From a bacterium (lineage in GTDB: Bacteria; Cyanobacteriota; Vampirovibrionia; Gastranaerophilales; UBA9971): DNA of 49,334 nucleotides. The notes under the pieces are model-generated. The model ran no database searches. It was not told the DNA's origin and saw nothing but the letters and a program-made list of their open reading frames with translations. Both the position numbers and the translations under genes were made by a program. Location: the NCBI GenBank assembly GCA_037147175.1, contig JBAWVS010000016.1, positions 1-49,334 of the forward strand. The letters run 5' to 3'. Of the stretch, positions 16,591 to 49,295 are shown piece by piece (within the stretch, counting starts at the first letter, position 1; each line of letters starts with the position of its first letter).

Positions 16591-17011
16591 AAAATCCGAA
16601 AATCCACAAAATCCTGAAAAATATGAAGTCGGATACAAAAAACCTCCAAAGGATTCCCAATTTATACCCGGTCTTTCCGGTAACAGAAAAGGCAGACCTA
16701 AAGACCACAGAAACACATACAATATGCTGACGGAAGTTCTGGACCAAAAAATCAGCATAAAGGAAAACGGCAGGGATTTAAGAATCTCCAAAAAACTTGC
16801 AATGATTATGCAGCTTGTGAATAAGGCTGTTAAAGGTGATGTCAAAGCCATAAATTCCCTGTTGCCACATATGCTTATGGCGGATGTTAAGGAAGAAGAT
16901 AAAAACAAGATTCTGGCATCCATTAGCCAGGATGACAGAGAAATTATCACCAATTACTTAAAAAATGTGTCGGATTTTGACGGCATAGAGGAGGTTAAAA
17001 CACATGATTAA
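16574..17011 (+). CDS. DUF5681 protein, probable small-terminase-like component
   Basis: This 145-residue basic protein has the DUF5681 N-terminal hallmark: VGYKKPPKDSQFIPGLSGN followed by RKGRPKDH. Helical segments follow (LTEVLDQKISI, LAMIMQLVNKAVKGDVKAINSLL). In phage and prophage regions this family commonly sits directly before the terminase large subunit, as here, and is thought to serve as the small terminase or DNA-recognition partner. It overlaps both neighbours (17 and 8 nt), so the three are translationally coupled. Confidence 0.82.
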   Translation: MPKKTKKSENPQNPEKYEVGYKKPPKDSQFIPGLSGNRKGRPKDHRNTYNMLTEVLDQKISIKENGRDLRISKKLAMIMQLVNKAVKGDVKAINSLLPHMLMADVKEEDKNKILASISQDDREIITNYLKNVSDFDGIEEVKTHD

Positions 17012-18533
17012 CGACAAAAAAGCACTGTTAAATTCTCTCCTTAGAATAAACTTCAAATCCTTTGTAGAAAAGGTGTTTAAGGAAGTTTCCCCGAACGCAA
17101 CTTATCTTGATAACTGGCATATTGATGTAATTTGTCATGAACTTATGGATGTTCAGGAAAATTATGCAAATCGGCTGATAATTAACATCCCGCCTCGCTA
17201 TATGAAATCTATTATCTGCTCTATCGCATTCCCTGCTTTCATTCTGGGACATAATCCCAAGGCAAGTATTATTGTAGTCAGCTACGCCGATGAATTGGCT
17301 TCAAAACTTGCACTTGATTGCAAAAAAGTTATGGAAAGCCATTGGTACAAGGAACTTTTTCCAAATACTAGATTATCAAAAAAATCCATAAACGATTTTG
17401 AAACCACAAAAGGCGGGGGTCGATACGCAACTTCCATTAACGGAACACTTACGGGTAGGGGTGCAGATTACATCATTATCGATGATCCAATGAAACCGAT
17501 GGATGCATTCTCAGATTTATTAAGGGATAAAACAAATGATTGGTATGGAAGCACACTTTATTCAAGGCTTAATAACAAGAAAGAGGGCAAAATTATTGTT
17601 GTAATGCAAAGACTTCACGAAGAAGACCTCTCAGGTTATCTACTCAATACGGACCCGAGTTTTAAACATATTAAAATATCCGCTATAGGTGAAGTTGATG
17701 AATGTTGGTGGGCTATAGACAGAGTTACAGGTTTAGAAAAATGGTTTCCCAGAAAGAAAAACGAAGCTCTGCATCCCGCAAGGGAAGATTTAGCAAAGTT
17801 ATATCAGGCAAAAGAGTATATGGGCGAGTATAACTTCGCCGGGCAATACCAGCAAAACCCAGCACCAAGGGAAGGAGGTGTGATTAAAAAGAAATGGCTT
17901 CAGTTTTACAACAAGGAAGCACTATTTAAGGCTATTGAAAATGAAGAAATTAAGATTAATTGCATCATCCAGTCATGGGATACAGCCAGTAAGATTGAGC
18001 AACACAACGATTATTCCGTTTGTATAACTATGCTCAGGGACAGAAATGACAAAAATTATGTGCTGGATGTCTATAGGGAAAAGCTGGAGTTTCCATTCCT
18101 GATCAAAAAAATTGCACAAAAACATAATGATGCCAAAGAAAAATACAAACACCGAATAGAAGTACTGATTGAAGATCAGGCATCCGGCACAAGCTTAATC
18201 CAGACATTAAGGCAGGATTACAAGATATACCCAAAAGGCATAAAGCCCGAGTATGACAAAGAAACAAGGTTAATCTCAGTTTCAAATTTATTAGAAAACG
18301 GAAATTGCTTGTTCCCTGAATATAAACCTGACTGGTGGTTGGATTTTGAGCAGGAATTGCTCAGATTTCCAAAATCAAAACATGACGACCAGTGCGATGC
18401 TCTAAGTCAAGCGTTGAATGAAAAAGTATATGCTTTTTCTGAACATGACTATCTCTCAAAACCCAGAGCTAAAACTGAAACGGATCGGCTTATGGACGGT
18501 TTTTATACAGAACCGGACTGGGATTTAATGTAG
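17004..18533 (+). CDS. Phage terminase large subunit
   Basis: This is a 509-residue, full-length TerL. The ATPase domain has a Walker A-type NIPPRYMKS (61-69), Walker B IIIDDP (157-162), and a following coupling region. The C-terminal RNase H-like nuclease has QSWDTASK with its Asp near 326, EDQASGTSLIQ, and the late acidic DDQCDAL. An excellent SD (GAGGAGG) lies in the end of the DUF5681 gene. TerL packages concatemeric phage DNA into a prohead. No portal, capsid or tail gene follows, which is unusual for a gene this intact. Confidence 0.93.
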   Translation: MINDKKALLNSLLRINFKSFVEKVFKEVSPNATYLDNWHIDVICHELMDVQENYANRLIINIPPRYMKSIICSIAFPAFILGHNPKASIIVVSYADELASKLALDCKKVMESHWYKELFPNTRLSKKSINDFETTKGGGRYATSINGTLTGRGADYIIIDDPMKPMDAFSDLLRDKTNDWYGSTLYSRLNNKKEGKIIVVMQRLHEEDLSGYLLNTDPSFKHIKISAIGEVDECWWAIDRVTGLEKWFPRKKNEALHPAREDLAKLYQAKEYMGEYNFAGQYQQNPAPREGGVIKKKWLQFYNKEALFKAIENEEIKINCIIQSWDTASKIEQHNDYSVCITMLRDRNDKNYVLDVYREKLEFPFLIKKIAQKHNDAKEKYKHRIEVLIEDQASGTSLIQTLRQDYKIYPKGIKPEYDKETRLISVSNLLENGNCLFPEYKPDWWLDFEQELLRFPKSKHDDQCDALSQALNEKVYAFSEHDYLSKPRAKTETDRLMDGFYTEPDWDLM

Positions 18534-19292: not shown

Positions 19293-19739
19293 ATGACAGA
19301 AACCATCGAAGAACTGCAAAGTCTGCCAAGACAAGAATTAATCCAAAAATGGAAAAAATTGTTTAAAACAAATTCCCCTCAACATGCAAGAAAAGAATTC
19401 CTGATAAAGCATATTGTGTGGGAACTTCAGGCAAAAAAACAAGGCGGTTATTCGGCACAGACAAAAAAGCAGCTTGATAAACTTGCGGAGAAACTCGCTA
19501 AAAAGCAAGATGTTAATGAAAATGACGTGAAAGAAACCTGTCGACAAAGTTCTGTTTTTGAGATCAAATCGGGTACAAAGCTCATAAGGGAGTATAAAGG
19601 CGAGAAACACGAAGTTATAGCTCTTGATAAAGGTTTTAAGTATAAAGATAAATTTTATAAAAGCTTATCAGCCATAGCAAATGAAATAACCGGCACAAGA
19701 TGGAACGGTAAAATCTTTTTTGGAGTAAAAAGCGCATGA
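19293..19739 (+). CDS. DUF2924 protein, partner of the serine recombinase
   Basis: This is a 148-residue basic protein of the DUF2924 family. The diagnostic C-terminal half is clear: GTKLIREYKGEKHEV, ALDKGFKYKDKFYKSLSAIA and TGTRWNGKIFFGV. DUF2924 genes are repeatedly found directly before phage-type large serine recombinases, where they may act as a DNA-binding accessory or directionality factor; that role is not proven. I chose the ATG at 19293 because AAAGGA lies 8 nt upstream; an in-frame ATG at 19257 lacks an SD. It overlaps the recombinase start by 4 nt (ATGA), indicating coupling. Confidence 0.87.
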   Translation: MTETIEELQSLPRQELIQKWKKLFKTNSPQHARKEFLIKHIVWELQAKKQGGYSAQTKKQLDKLAEKLAKKQDVNENDVKETCRQSSVFEIKSGTKLIREYKGEKHEVIALDKGFKYKDKFYKSLSAIANEITGTRWNGKIFFGVKSA

Positions 19740-21412
19740 GCATTGCAGGTAAAAAAATAATCAGGTGTGCCATTTATACAAGAAAATCTTCGGAAGAAGG
19801 TCTTGATCAGGATTTCAATTCTCTTGATGCCCAAAGAGAAGCCTGCGAATCATATATTAAGTCTCAGCAACACGAAGGCTGGGTTCTTGTCGAAAAACAA
19901 TATAATGATGGCGGATTTTCAGGAGGCACTTTAGAAAGACCTGCGCTTAAAGAACTGTTTCAAGATATTGAAGCCGGCGAAATTGATACTATAGTCGTTT
20001 ATAAAATTGACAGGCTTACTCGTTCCCTTATGGATTTTTCCAAAATTGTTGAATTATTTGATAAAAAAGCAGTTTCATTTGTTTCAATAACACAGCAGTT
20101 CAATACCACAACCAGTATGGGGCGATTAACACTTAATATTCTTCTGTCTTTTGCTCAATTTGAAAGGGAAGTTACAGGCGAAAGAATAAGAGATAAAATT
20201 GCCGCATCAAAGAAAAAAGGTATGTGGATGAGCGGAAAGCCGCCCATCGGATATGAATTAAAAGAGAAAAAGCTTTTACCGGATGTTGAGCATATGAATA
20301 AAATAAAAATAATTTTTGAAAAATATCTTGAATTAAAAAGTGTGCCGGATTTAACCGGTTACCTGAAAGAAAATAATATAAAAACTAAAAATAATATATT
20401 TTTTACAAAAGGAGCCTTATATCATATTCTGCAAAATAAAATTTATGTCGGTTTAATTACACACAAAGACAAAGTATATGACGGTGAACATCAAGCTATA
20501 ATTGAGAAGGATGTTTTTGAAAAAGTTCAACAAATATTATCACAAAACAGAATTGACAGAAAAAATTCAATAAATGCTAAAACACCTTCATTCCTTGCCG
20601 GAAAGCTGTTTGATGATGCAGGAAACAGAATGACTCCAAGCCATAGTAATACAAGAAACAGAAAGTACAGATACTATGTCAGTCAAGCAATAATTCAAGC
20701 CAGAAAGAATGAAGCAGGTTCTGTATCGAAAATTCCCGCAGGTGAAATTGAAAAAGTTGTTACTGAAGAAATTAAAACATTTTTATTTAATACAAAAAAT
20801 ATTCATCAATACATTGAAGATTACGATATTCATAAGCAAAAAGAACTGATGTTATCAATAAAAAGCTTGCAGCATGATATTAAAACCGGGTTTAATAATG
20901 CTTTTATCAGGACAATCTTAAGCAAAATAGTTTTGTATAAAGAAAAAATAGAGATTACTTTTTGCAAGGAGCAATTACTAAAAGCACTACATTCGGTAAA
21001 TTCTAATACAATACTGCCTGAAGAAATTAAAAAAGATACTACTGAGCCAATTTTTATTACAAAAGCTTTACGGCTGTCACAGACTTCTAAAAATGGCGGC
21101 ATAATAATAATCACGGATTCGCAAAAACAGGATGTTAATATTAACCCTCATTTAATTAAAGCTATAGCCAAAAGTCATTACTGGAATAATCTTTTACTAT
21201 CCGGCGAAGCGGTAAGCAGTAAAGATATACAAAAAATGGAAAATTTAAATGATAACACTTACATTAAAGATGTTTTACGTTTAAGATTTCTCGCTCCTGA
21301 TATTACAGAAAAGATTTTAAACGGTACTCAGCCACCGGAGATGAGTATTCAGAAACTTTTTAAGATTAATACGTTTGATTGGACTGAACAAAGAAGATTA
21401 TTGAATATCTAA
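19736..21412 (+). CDS. Large serine recombinase (phage-type integrase)
   Basis: This is a 558-residue recombinase. The resolvase domain (8-150) has the nucleophile in YTRKSSEEG (Ser18), the segment SLDAQREACESYI, FSGGTLERPAL, and VVYKIDRLTRS. The Recombinase domain follows (KGMWMSGKPPIGYEL). In place of a Cys zinc ribbon there is a GNRMTPSHSNTRNRKYRYYVS segment, typical of the DUF2924-associated subgroup. Its gene ends the phage-like module, about 235 nt before tRNA-Ala, so it is probably the integrase of the element. I could not find matching att repeats. An SOS or lysogeny link is not visible. Confidence 0.93.
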   Translation: MSIAGKKIIRCAIYTRKSSEEGLDQDFNSLDAQREACESYIKSQQHEGWVLVEKQYNDGGFSGGTLERPALKELFQDIEAGEIDTIVVYKIDRLTRSLMDFSKIVELFDKKAVSFVSITQQFNTTTSMGRLTLNILLSFAQFEREVTGERIRDKIAASKKKGMWMSGKPPIGYELKEKKLLPDVEHMNKIKIIFEKYLELKSVPDLTGYLKENNIKTKNNIFFTKGALYHILQNKIYVGLITHKDKVYDGEHQAIIEKDVFEKVQQILSQNRIDRKNSINAKTPSFLAGKLFDDAGNRMTPSHSNTRNRKYRYYVSQAIIQARKNEAGSVSKIPAGEIEKVVTEEIKTFLFNTKNIHQYIEDYDIHKQKELMLSIKSLQHDIKTGFNNAFIRTILSKIVLYKEKIEITFCKEQLLKALHSVNSNTILPEEIKKDTTEPIFITKALRLSQTSKNGGIIIITDSQKQDVNINPHLIKAIAKSHYWNNLLLSGEAVSSKDIQKMENLNDNTYIKDVLRLRFLAPDITEKILNGTQPPEMSIQKLFKINTFDWTEQRRLLNI

Positions 21413-33044: not shown

Positions 33045-33234
33045 GCGATACTGCTTTTTTCTAATCATATACCCTCTTTTGCATATTAAGAAATATTAAA
33101 ACGAATTTCGCCTTTAGAGAAGAGGCTTTTGATAAAATCATAAAGTTTTTTCTAGTCTTTAATGTTAATTAATTTTTTTACCATTTTTATAAATATTGTT
33201 AGTTTAATAAATAATTATAATGAAAGGATAATTA

Positions 33235-34614
33235 ATGAAAATACAAGATAATAATTTTGTTTATTCAAATACAAGAACTAAGCTATCTTTTAAAGGGCTA
33301 AAAAACGCATCATCACTTATAAATTCTGCACGAATGACGGATCAGTTCATAAAAATGGCTAAAATTGATACCGGCTCAAATGAAGTAAAAGCAGAAAATG
33401 GTCAAATTCCAAGCACACCTTGCCAAATAGAATTTGCTAATAAACTGGCAACTGAGCTTAGACAAATGGGTTTAACAGAAGTAGAAGTTGATAAACACGG
33501 TATACTTACCGCAACTTTGCAAAGTAACATTAAAAACAGCAAAAATCTGCCTGTCATAGGGCTTATTGCACATATTGATACAAATGAAGACGTCCCTACA
33601 GGACCTGTAAACCCTAAAATTCACAAAAATTATCAAAACGGTAATATTTTACTTGAAAATGGAGTTAAAATTACAGAAAATGAATTAAAAATTCATAAAG
33701 GGGAAGATATTATAACTTCAGACGGAAAAACATTGTTAGGATCTGACGATAAGTCAGGCATAGCAGAAATAATTGAAATTTTAAATGTTTATAAAGAAAA
33801 TCCTGAAATAAAACATACTAAAATCAGAATTGCATTCACACCTGATGAAGAGACAGGAATGGGCGCAGACAAATTTGATATTAAAAAATTTGGTGCAGAT
33901 GTAGCTTATACTATAGATGGTGGAAAACCCGAAGAAATAGAGTCAGAAACATTTAATGCTTACAATCCTGAAATAAAAATAACAGGTAAAAATGTTCACC
34001 CCGGTTATGCCCACGGAATCATGATCAACGCTTTAAAAATAGCAGCAAAATTCATAACCAAATTACCAGAAGATGAAGCGCCTGAAACAACAAAAGGAAG
34101 AGAAGGATTTTTTCATGCTTTTGATATTAATGGCAATGAAGAAAGTACAACTATAAAAATGCTTGTAAGGGATTTCGATGGAAAAAAAGCTGAGGAACGC
34201 GTGAAATTTGTTGAAAGTTTAGCCAAACAGCTTGAAAAAGAAAACCCGCAAAGTTCAATTACAGTTAAACCGAATTATAAATATGGAAACATGAAACAAA
34301 AGCTTGAAGAATTGCCTGAAGTTATTACATTTGCTAAAGAAGCAATTCAAAACAACGGATTAATTCCTGAAGAACTTCCTATAAGAGGAGGAACTGACGG
34401 TTCCAACCTTACATTAAGAGGTTTGTTAACACCCAATCTTGGGGCTGGCATGAATAATATACATTCAAAAAATGAATTTGTAACTATTCAAGATATGTCA
34501 AAATGTGCTGCAAATATTCTTAATATTGTAGACGTTTGGACTAATAAAGCACTTTCCAATGAAGGCGGAATAGTTGACAAAATTAATCAAAGAAGAACTT
34601 TAAACATAGAGTAA
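33235..34614 (+). CDS. pepT: Peptidase T (tripeptide aminopeptidase) with an unusual N-terminal extension
   Basis: This 459-residue M20B zinc peptidase removes the N-terminal residue of tripeptides. Metal ligands and catalytic residues are in place: HIDTNED (His-x-Asp), LLGSDDKSG, FTPDEETGMG, YTIDGGKPEE and NNIHSKNEF. The conserved domain begins only near residue 38 (QFIKMAKIDTGS). The first 35 residues, containing TKLSFKGLKNASS, are extra compared with typical PepT. AAGGA lies before the ATG, so the extension is real. A similar N-terminal LSFG motif occurs in the two paralogues at the end of the window. Confidence 0.93.
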   Translation: MKIQDNNFVYSNTRTKLSFKGLKNASSLINSARMTDQFIKMAKIDTGSNEVKAENGQIPSTPCQIEFANKLATELRQMGLTEVEVDKHGILTATLQSNIKNSKNLPVIGLIAHIDTNEDVPTGPVNPKIHKNYQNGNILLENGVKITENELKIHKGEDIITSDGKTLLGSDDKSGIAEIIEILNVYKENPEIKHTKIRIAFTPDEETGMGADKFDIKKFGADVAYTIDGGKPEEIESETFNAYNPEIKITGKNVHPGYAHGIMINALKIAAKFITKLPEDEAPETTKGREGFFHAFDINGNEESTTIKMLVRDFDGKKAEERVKFVESLAKQLEKENPQSSITVKPNYKYGNMKQKLEELPEVITFAKEAIQNNGLIPEELPIRGGTDGSNLTLRGLLTPNLGAGMNNIHSKNEFVTIQDMSKCAANILNIVDVWTNKALSNEGGIVDKINQRRTLNIE

Positions 34615-47721: not shown

Positions 47722-48255
47722 ATGATGACAAAAATTTCACTTACACAACCAATGCCAAATAAAGCACTTTCTTTTGGTAGATCTTATCATTACAACGATT
47801 TGTTTTCTGAAGCCATACAAAGTAACTCAGTAACAATAACCCCTCAGGAAGAAGAAAAACATCTGGAAGATATGTTTAAAAAAATGAAATCAAAAAAATT
47901 AGCGCCTATAGATTTGCTTGATCCGCGTCTGTGTTCAAGTAGACCTATGGTTCCGGAGATAATGAAACTTATTGACCCTCGAAAAGATGACATATGGACA
48001 GACTATAAAGAGCATTTTTTTGAAGAAGGTGCATCCGGAAAGAAAGGACGTATAGTAAAAATCAGGATGCCTGAATATACGCCGGAAATATTTCCGGCTC
48101 CATTGCGGATAGTAGAAATCCCTCTTGATATAGAGTCTTACGGAAAAGGAATTTATACGCAATACGATAGTACTATGACAGAAAGATCCAAAAAACTCTT
48201 TAAGGCTATTTTAAGCCATACAACAAAATTTAAAGAATGGGTAGGACGTATATAA
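47722..48255 (+). CDS. Unrecognised protein, tandem paralogue 1
   Basis: This 177-residue protein is about 80% identical by hand alignment to the next gene. The N-terminus reads KISLTQPMPNKALSFGRSYHY; the middle is charged (EEEKHLEDMFKKMKSKKLAP), followed by a conserved KKGRIVKIRMP...FPAPLRIV-IPL and YGKGIYTQYD. No known domain, signal peptide or membrane helix. AAGGAG lies 7 nt before two tandem ATGs. A hairpin follows the stop. The family is unknown and probably lineage-specific. Confidence 0.7.
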   Translation: MMTKISLTQPMPNKALSFGRSYHYNDLFSEAIQSNSVTITPQEEEKHLEDMFKKMKSKKLAPIDLLDPRLCSSRPMVPEIMKLIDPRKDDIWTDYKEHFFEEGASGKKGRIVKIRMPEYTPEIFPAPLRIVEIPLDIESYGKGIYTQYDSTMTERSKKLFKAILSHTTKFKEWVGRI

Positions 48256-48734: not shown

Positions 48735-49295
48735 ATGATGACAAAAATTTCACTTTCACAACCAATGCCAAATAAAGCACTTTCTTTTGGTAAATCTTAT
48801 CATTACAACGATTGGTTTTCTGAAGCCATACAAATTAACTCAGTAACAATAACCCCTCAGGAAGAAGAAAAACATCTGGAAGATATGCTTGAAAAAATGA
48901 AATCAAAAAAATTAGCGCCTATAGACCAGTTTGATCCGCGTCTGTATTCAAGTAACCCTATGGTTCCGAAGATAATGAAACTTATTGACCCTCGAAATGA
49001 AGACACTTGGACAAAGTATCTAGAGCATTTTTTTGAAGAAGGTGAGTCCGGAAAAAAAGGTCGCATAGTGAAAATCAGAATGCCTCAGCGTTCAACAGAA
49101 ATATTTCCGGCTCCATTGCGGATAGTATCGATTCCTCTTGATAAAGAGTCTTACGGAAAAGGGATTTATACTCAATACGATAATACTATGACAGAAAAAT
49201 CCAAAAACCTCTTTAAGGATATTTTAAGAAATACAGCTAAATTTGAAAGATGGCTAGGACGGATGCCTTATGAGGAAGTCCTAGTGTTCAGTTAA
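48735..49295 (+). CDS. Unrecognised protein, tandem paralogue 2
   Basis: This 186-residue protein is the second copy of the preceding gene, with the same N-terminal PNKALSFGKSYHYND and the KKGRIVKIRMP core. Its C-terminus is 9 residues longer (PYEEVLVFS). Differences cluster in the middle (residues 65-97) and at the C-terminus, so the copies are diverging. AAGGAG precedes the ATG. The MITE-like element lies directly upstream. Confidence 0.7.
   Translation: MMTKISLSQPMPNKALSFGKSYHYNDWFSEAIQINSVTITPQEEEKHLEDMLEKMKSKKLAPIDQFDPRLYSSNPMVPKIMKLIDPRNEDTWTKYLEHFFEEGESGKKGRIVKIRMPQRSTEIFPAPLRIVSIPLDKESYGKGIYTQYDNTMTEKSKNLFKDILRNTAKFERWLGRMPYEEVLVFS

Follow-up and report, generated by a model that had tools for sequence, protein, structure and literature searches.

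Why should a peptidase T carry an N-terminal extension whose short motif recurs near the start of two unrelated proteins elsewhere in the same stretch of DNA? The question is raised by a window of 49,334 nucleotides (the whole stretch analyzed here, and part of contig 16 of a 2.66-Mb genome) from the Gastranaerophilales, which are non-photosynthetic cyanobacteria of the class Vampirovibrionia/Melainabacteria, live in animal guts, and are little studied and have hardly been brought into culture. An address tag common to their N-termini would offer a first handle on the destinations of many unannotated proteins, and a preliminary description of the window had proposed that the motif, which it wrote as LSF(G/K), might be a lineage-specific sorting or anchoring signal. 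Our analysis partly supports the first of these ideas, provided that the motif is corrected, and a lineage-specific sorting signal is our leading reading; anchoring is disfavored because the leader is predicted to be disordered and is not hydrophobic. The features on which the argument draws are collected in table 1.

Table 1. Features of the window and two further loci of the same genome, with the evidence for each.
Feature	Position	Strand	Evidence
pepT-like gene, 459 aa, tripeptide aminopeptidase with N-terminal extension	33235..34614	+	NCBIfam profiles; E. coli K-12 PepT 41% identical from residue 33 on
AAAGGA, ribosome-binding-like site serving the upstream start	33223..33228	+	Sequence
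Disordered leader, PepT residues 1-23	33235..33303	+	AlphaFold2 pLDDT <50
M-K-I start, first element of the bipartite leader	33235..33243	+	M-[KNQ..]-[IV] over-represented in strict-motif proteins
LSFKG motif, PepT residues 17-21	33283..33297	+	Fits the phi-x-F-x-G consensus of the order-wide ~530-aa family
Orphan paralogue 1, 177 aa, LSFG at residues 16-19 (47767-47778)	47722..48255	+	No Pfam/NCBIfam family
Orphan paralogue 2, 186 aa, LSFG at residues 16-19 (48780-48791)	48735..49295	+	No Pfam/NCBIfam family
Soluble protein with the FlhA cytosolic domain only, preceded by an unrelated N-terminal stretch	L059:13521-15053 (own genome, contig 28)		Profile match
Divergent type III cluster: ATPase, full-length FlhA-2, FliH	L062:14632-19080 (own genome, contig 31)		Below flagellar and injectisome cut-offs

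With regard to the enzyme itself, its NCBIfam matches, both running from residue 33/34, reach 480.2 bits against NF003976 (cut-off 255) and 396.5 bits against TIGR01882 (cut-off 285.75), and an alignment of eight PepTs from the order leaves H113, D115, D172, E205, E206, D228, and H410 invariant, positions that we take to be the metal-ligand and catalytic residues of PepT (H..D, DD, EE, D, H). By profile cut-offs and retained residues the gene is thus a peptidase T and a predicted tripeptidase. Residue 3 of E. coli K-12 PepT aligns with its residue 33, which puts the extension at about 30 residues, close to the 35 first counted, and KLSFKGL does lie inside it (N-terminal sequence MKIQDNNFVYSNTRTKLSFKGLKNASSLINSARMTDQF). 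The start at ATG 33235 is credible because AAAGGA precedes it, whereas ATG 33334 (residue 34), the one alternative start within the leader, has no ribosome-binding-like site upstream; PepT orthologues moreover conserve sequence (YIN/LIN..R) upstream of the Met at residue 34. The leader is polar and predicted to be disordered, with no Sec h-region.

True PepT proved to be rare, being present in 8 of 286 genomes of the order, and its N-terminus varies among these eight. In three the extension contains an F-G motif (the window copy, NTNFGKS at L098, and PVNFGQK at L097), two have an M-[K/R]-I leader devoid of it, another two have no extension, and the copy at L095 has a Sec-like signal peptide at the place of the extension. 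Because F-G motif, M-[K/R]-I leader, and Sec-like signal are found in the same place, the extension looks like a localization slot. The copy at L095, taken on its own, would imply an extracytoplasmic tripeptidase.

The two terminal paralogues both begin with MMTKISL(T/S)QPMPNKALSFG(R/K)SYHYND, so that the NKALSFG noticed at the outset does stand in both at nearly the same distance from the N-terminus as the motif of PepT (F18 in the paralogues, F19 in PepT). Being copies of each other (143/177 residues identical, 81%) with no relative found when 59 further Gastranaerophilales genomes were searched, they count as one independent instance of the motif. The pair stops 39 bases short of the end of the window and contig, which may truncate a longer tandem array. 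Elsewhere, mobile DNA in the window's first half is suggested by open reading frames at 154-1365, 17004-18533, and 19736-21412, named by eye as transposase-, terminase-, and recombinase-like.

Taken literally, the motif fails in this genome the test that the preliminary description set for it, enrichment at N-termini, whereas the broader phi-x-F-x-G form introduced below passes it. Once the proteins of the finding itself are set aside, [IL]SF[GK] within residues 4-48 occurs in 2/706 proteins of this genome versus 12/3639 internal windows, which is no enrichment, and across the order its excess is weak (13/2018 vs. 28/9884, p 0.015). Other sampled N-termini (MIKGITPAPNFTGNLV, MIKRVTPLPSFTGKLI, MVAPISFSGKMLL, MKVNNINKTSFGNL, and MEKNKLSFKGGYK) hinted at a broader element, which is made of M-[K/N/Q]-[I/V], a spacer of variable sequence that is polar, disordered, and rich in Asn, Lys, and Pro, and then [P/I/V/L]-x-F-[K/T/N/G]-G, LSF(G/K) being one version of it. 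We counted a strict form of its second part, [VIP][NST]F[KTSGN][GSA] within residues 4-48, using internal windows of equal length as control, on reading frames called mechanically (at least 90 aa, start chosen by a simple ribosome-binding-site score) rather than taken from curated annotation. Near-duplicates were removed (2930 reduced to 2311), these de-duplicated sets replacing weak early statistics on raw reading frames, and the order-wide ~530-aa family described below was excluded from the count.

The strict pattern was then found in 28/2016 order proteins against 37/9854 internal windows (odds ratio 3.7, p 7e-7; 28/2018 vs. 37/9884, p 6.6e-7, in the set used for the literal motif), p-values that are optimistic since the pattern was picked after the data had been seen; overall, the broader element is 3-4 times enriched at N-termini in the Gastranaerophilales. 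Shuffles and altered motifs are the safer evidence: over 200 composition-preserving shuffles of the N-termini, strict matches averaged 9.6 and never exceeded 20, the reversed motif occurs in 4/2016 order proteins, and replacing F by L (14/2016), Y, I, or W leaves no enrichment at order N-termini; nor is the strict motif enriched in E. coli K-12 (1/193 vs. 4/891 internal windows). Without the proteins of the finding itself, the organism's own genome, the 80 named loci, and other relatives each give about 1.4% versus 0.3-0.4%, the own-genome hold-out alone (5/339 vs. 10/1715, p 0.086) not being significant. Among class families, enrichment is suggestive in f9, f14, and f15 (7/130 vs. 12/661 internal windows), and there is no enrichment in the small samples from f8 and f10-f13. 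Strict-motif proteins also start more often with M-[polar]-[IV] (11/25 vs. 271/1450 of the others without a hydrophobic N-terminus, p 0.004), which is why we regard the element as bipartite. One locus, L133:11149-15154, encodes three small neighboring proteins with PNFTG, PSFTG, and PNFAG leaders.

The clearest evidence for the motif that comparison of sequences affords is its conservation in the family of about 530 aa excluded above, which is present in 59/60 sampled genomes of the order and absent from 25 genomes of the phylum outside it. A scan of named genomes with this family gave 80 loci, among which the nearest to the organism's own copy is from UBA9971 (68% identity); an additional 30 loci yielded 28 family sequences, the partial L200 and L201 falling out. 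Among full-length members at named loci, 85/94 have F-x-[GAS] or FG within residues 4-60 (52 of them the strict F-x-G), and in several of the remainder Y or H replaces F. From a diversity pick of 49 sequences, 48 entered an alignment in which the motif column is F in 40/47 and the +2 column G in 37/46, neighboring leader columns being variable; the conserved column has the variable spacer on one side and the folded domain on the other. The AlphaFold2 model built from 48 sequences has a mean pLDDT of 86, its residues 1-23, motif included, falling below 50. Members (L193-L222, L246-L325) are helical and lie as an adjacent pair in many genomes. The family gives no functional clue, since it has neither a Pfam match nor a convincing solved relative (best Foldseek E 0.075), and its neighbors as named by eye (SGNH-hydrolase-like, an ATP-synthase cluster, and others) include no secretion genes. 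In our reading, the extension of PepT and the N-termini of the paralogues each represent an instance of one N-terminal short linear motif specific to the Gastranaerophilales, and we hold it highly probable that this motif is real. The idea of a lineage-specific motif common to unrelated proteins accordingly stands for the broader phi-x-F-x-G element, which is enriched, exceeds its shuffles, and is conserved within variable leaders, but not for the literal version in the genome where it was first noticed.

What such an element may do is suggested by its setting. The motif is short, lies in disordered N-terminal leaders, and sits on carriers that mostly have no hydrophobic N-terminus (3/28 strict-motif proteins have one vs. 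542/1992 of the others, p 0.05); this suggests an address that one shared receptor recognizes, and a role in targeting or docking seems probable to us. In the mechanism that we put forward, a conserved receptor would read the leader as an address on proteins without a Sec signal peptide, and a divergent type III export gate (FlhA-2, FlhB-2, and ATPase-2) would be the most likely candidate for it. Export would then apply to PepT and 5'-nucleotidase, as salvage enzymes, and to the orphan paralogues, as lineage-specific proteins. An unstructured N-terminal leader is what a type III substrate should have, and that of PepT is predicted to be so.

The candidate gate is widespread. A FHIPEP (FlhA) protein was detected in 60/60 order genomes and FlhB in 59/60. 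Sorted by bit score, a classification of our own, the FlhA proteins fall into three kinds: the canonical flagellar one (about 860-890 bits), found in 19/22 genomes outside family f2 and in 0/38 f2 genomes; a second full-length one, FlhA-2 (about 670-736 bits), found in 56/60 order genomes, including 37/38 of f2; and, in most order genomes, a shorter protein with the cytosolic FlhA domain only. Flagellin is present in 21/60 order genomes and in 0/38 of f2. The FlhA-2 of the window organism (L062, 704 bits as a full-length FHIPEP protein) remains below the cut-offs of both flagellar FlhA (TIGR01398, 658 vs. 772.1, when the canonical FlhA of L330 scores 866.9) and injectisome SctV (TIGR01399, 583.6 vs. 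692.25), and the adjacent ATPase is likewise below the curated cut-offs of both FliI and SctN. Its identity to other FlhA proteins is 70-71% in f2, 57-65% in f9, f14, and f15, 42-47% in f10-f12, and 33-38% for the canonical copies. Since FlhA-2 is conserved, is below both cut-offs, and is present in the flagellin-less f2, it represents a divergent, conserved type III export gate. At L331, canonical FlhA and FlhA-2 are convergent neighbors in one genome.

The 5'-nucleotidases bear on the same question. In the class families f8 and f13, FlhA exceeds the cut-off in 0/12 genomes and 11/11 nucleotidases have a Sec-like signal; in the families with FlhA-2, 18/19 (the exception being L192) have no Sec-like signal and a polar leader instead, five of these 18 with the F motif in some form. 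Sec-less and Sec-bearing enzymes may, however, represent distinct subfamilies. Both searches covered 11 f2 genomes, and in 10 of these the Sec-less nucleotidase, or a paralogue that was not fetched, is convergent with an FlhB gene less than about 0.9 kb away, an arrangement that may be a single one inherited within one family; the FlhB NPTH motif was seen at two (L165 and L174) of the 30 fetched nucleotidase loci.

On this basis, we tentatively favor a leader that is a targeting motif read by the divergent type III gate, a reading to which we give somewhat less than even weight: the tie to the gate is correlational, and both the targeting role and the gate as its machine are inferred. Its bolder form, in which the leader would be the sequence-defined substrate signal of an unrecognized filament-less type III lineage, near-universal in the Gastranaerophilales and present in some sister families, we consider rather unlikely. 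Several observations run against export. The gate is so nearly universal that finding it together with the motif within the order carries no information; among the f2 nucleotidases next to FlhB, those whose leaders could be read, namely those at fetched loci, mostly have no F motif; f10-f12 have an FlhA 42-47% identical and yet show no motif enrichment in the small sample; and the spacing of the two parts of the leader is often far below the distance between signals, 19-30 residues or more, that passages of PMC8983047 give as the requirement of the flagellar gate.

Two further difficulties for export are at the same time what recommends a cytosolic docking motif, by which the disordered leader would tether its carriers, enzymes and small proteins alike, to a scaffold or condensate particular to the lineage, with no export at all. 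Some carriers are expected in the cytosol (a sigma-70 factor, a uridine-kinase-like protein, and CheR-like methyltransferases), and part of the ~530-aa family bears a similar element in its C-terminal tail (VTFKS, LSYTG; a looser pattern in 38/94 tails), which fits docking better than an export signal. However, the motif is not enriched at C-termini across the order (63/2311, below the internal rate), no scaffold candidate was identified, and the Sec-bearing relatives of PepT and of the nucleotidase point to an extracytoplasmic role. We consider docking somewhat unlikely.

It is improbable that the element has no function and reflects chance matches in Asn/Lys-rich, low-complexity N-termini. 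The flat count of the literal motif in this genome would fit chance, as would the behavior of the motif-finding models, both of which we dropped in favor of short anchored patterns: unsupervised expectation maximization (EM) missed the motif, recovering composition only, and a seeded 12-column EM model trained on half of the data was over-fitted, its enrichment being weak or absent outside the training set (at a score >6, B 7/323 vs. 16/1524 and C 3/245 vs. 19/1148). The residue context around all N-terminal Phe was, for its part, too diluted for the motif to appear. Chance, however, does not account for a strict count above all 200 shuffles, for the flat reversed and F-substituted versions, or for an F and a G conserved in the otherwise variable leader of the ~530-aa family. 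We find quite improbable a regulated degron or protease-adaptor tag recognized by Clp or Lon, which would suit a short, disordered, N-terminal leader common to unrelated proteins but would be unusual, we think, on proteins of a family spread over the whole order or of tandem orphan families. Finally, a flagellar gate-recognition motif of the classical kind (FXXX-phi, with hydrophobic residues at the N-terminus) that the ordinary flagellar apparatus would recognize, despite the bipartite layout and a residue +4 from F that is M, L, or F in 52/78 members of the ~530-aa family, is very improbable and, as stated, largely refuted by spacing and by presence in flagellin-less genomes, given that the F of this family lies at residues 6-53 (median 19), often too near the N-terminus, that motif-bearing members persist in the flagellin-less f2, and that the window PepT has K23 at +4, hence no F-x-x-x-phi, with I3 and F19 15 residues apart, short of 19-30.

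Were the bolder form, a sequence-defined signal for a filament-less type III lineage, to be correct, much of the exported proteome, including PepT, 5'-nucleotidase, and many orphans, would be predictable directly from sequence. If the gate reads the tag, genomes reported as flagella-less (passages of Soo 2015, PMC4451040, mention flagella lost in part of the order, and passages of Di Rienzi 2013, PMC3787301, a partly lost flagellum in MEL.A1) would keep a conserved secretion machine with a readable consensus signal. Our search of the open literature on Gastranaerophilales, Melainabacteria, and Vampirovibrio, most subscription journals being outside its scope, found no title on such a motif or secretion system in this order.

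How, then, do these parts compare with known systems? The catalytic protein is like known PepT (TIGR01882, NF003976; PDB 1fno, 1vix, 3ife) from residue 33 on, to which the window enzyme adds its leader with an FxG motif. FlhA-2 is, like FlhA and SctV, a full-length FHIPEP protein, but differs from both in lying below their equivalog cut-offs and in occurring without flagellin in f2. Type III effector signals are likewise N-terminal, disordered, and polar; they are generally described as having no sequence consensus, whereas the leader described here has one. Early flagellar subunits have export signals of similar layout: passages of PMC8983047 give for FlgD the signals 2SIAV5 and GRM 36FLTLL40, that is, as in our leader, a small hydrophobic residue at the extreme N-terminus, an unstructured spacer, and a short Phe-led motif. 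In contrast with the purely hydrophobic core of these FlgD-type signals, however, our element has G at +2 and a spacing that is often far shorter, and it is carried by soluble enzymes and orphan proteins, in genomes that have no flagellin.
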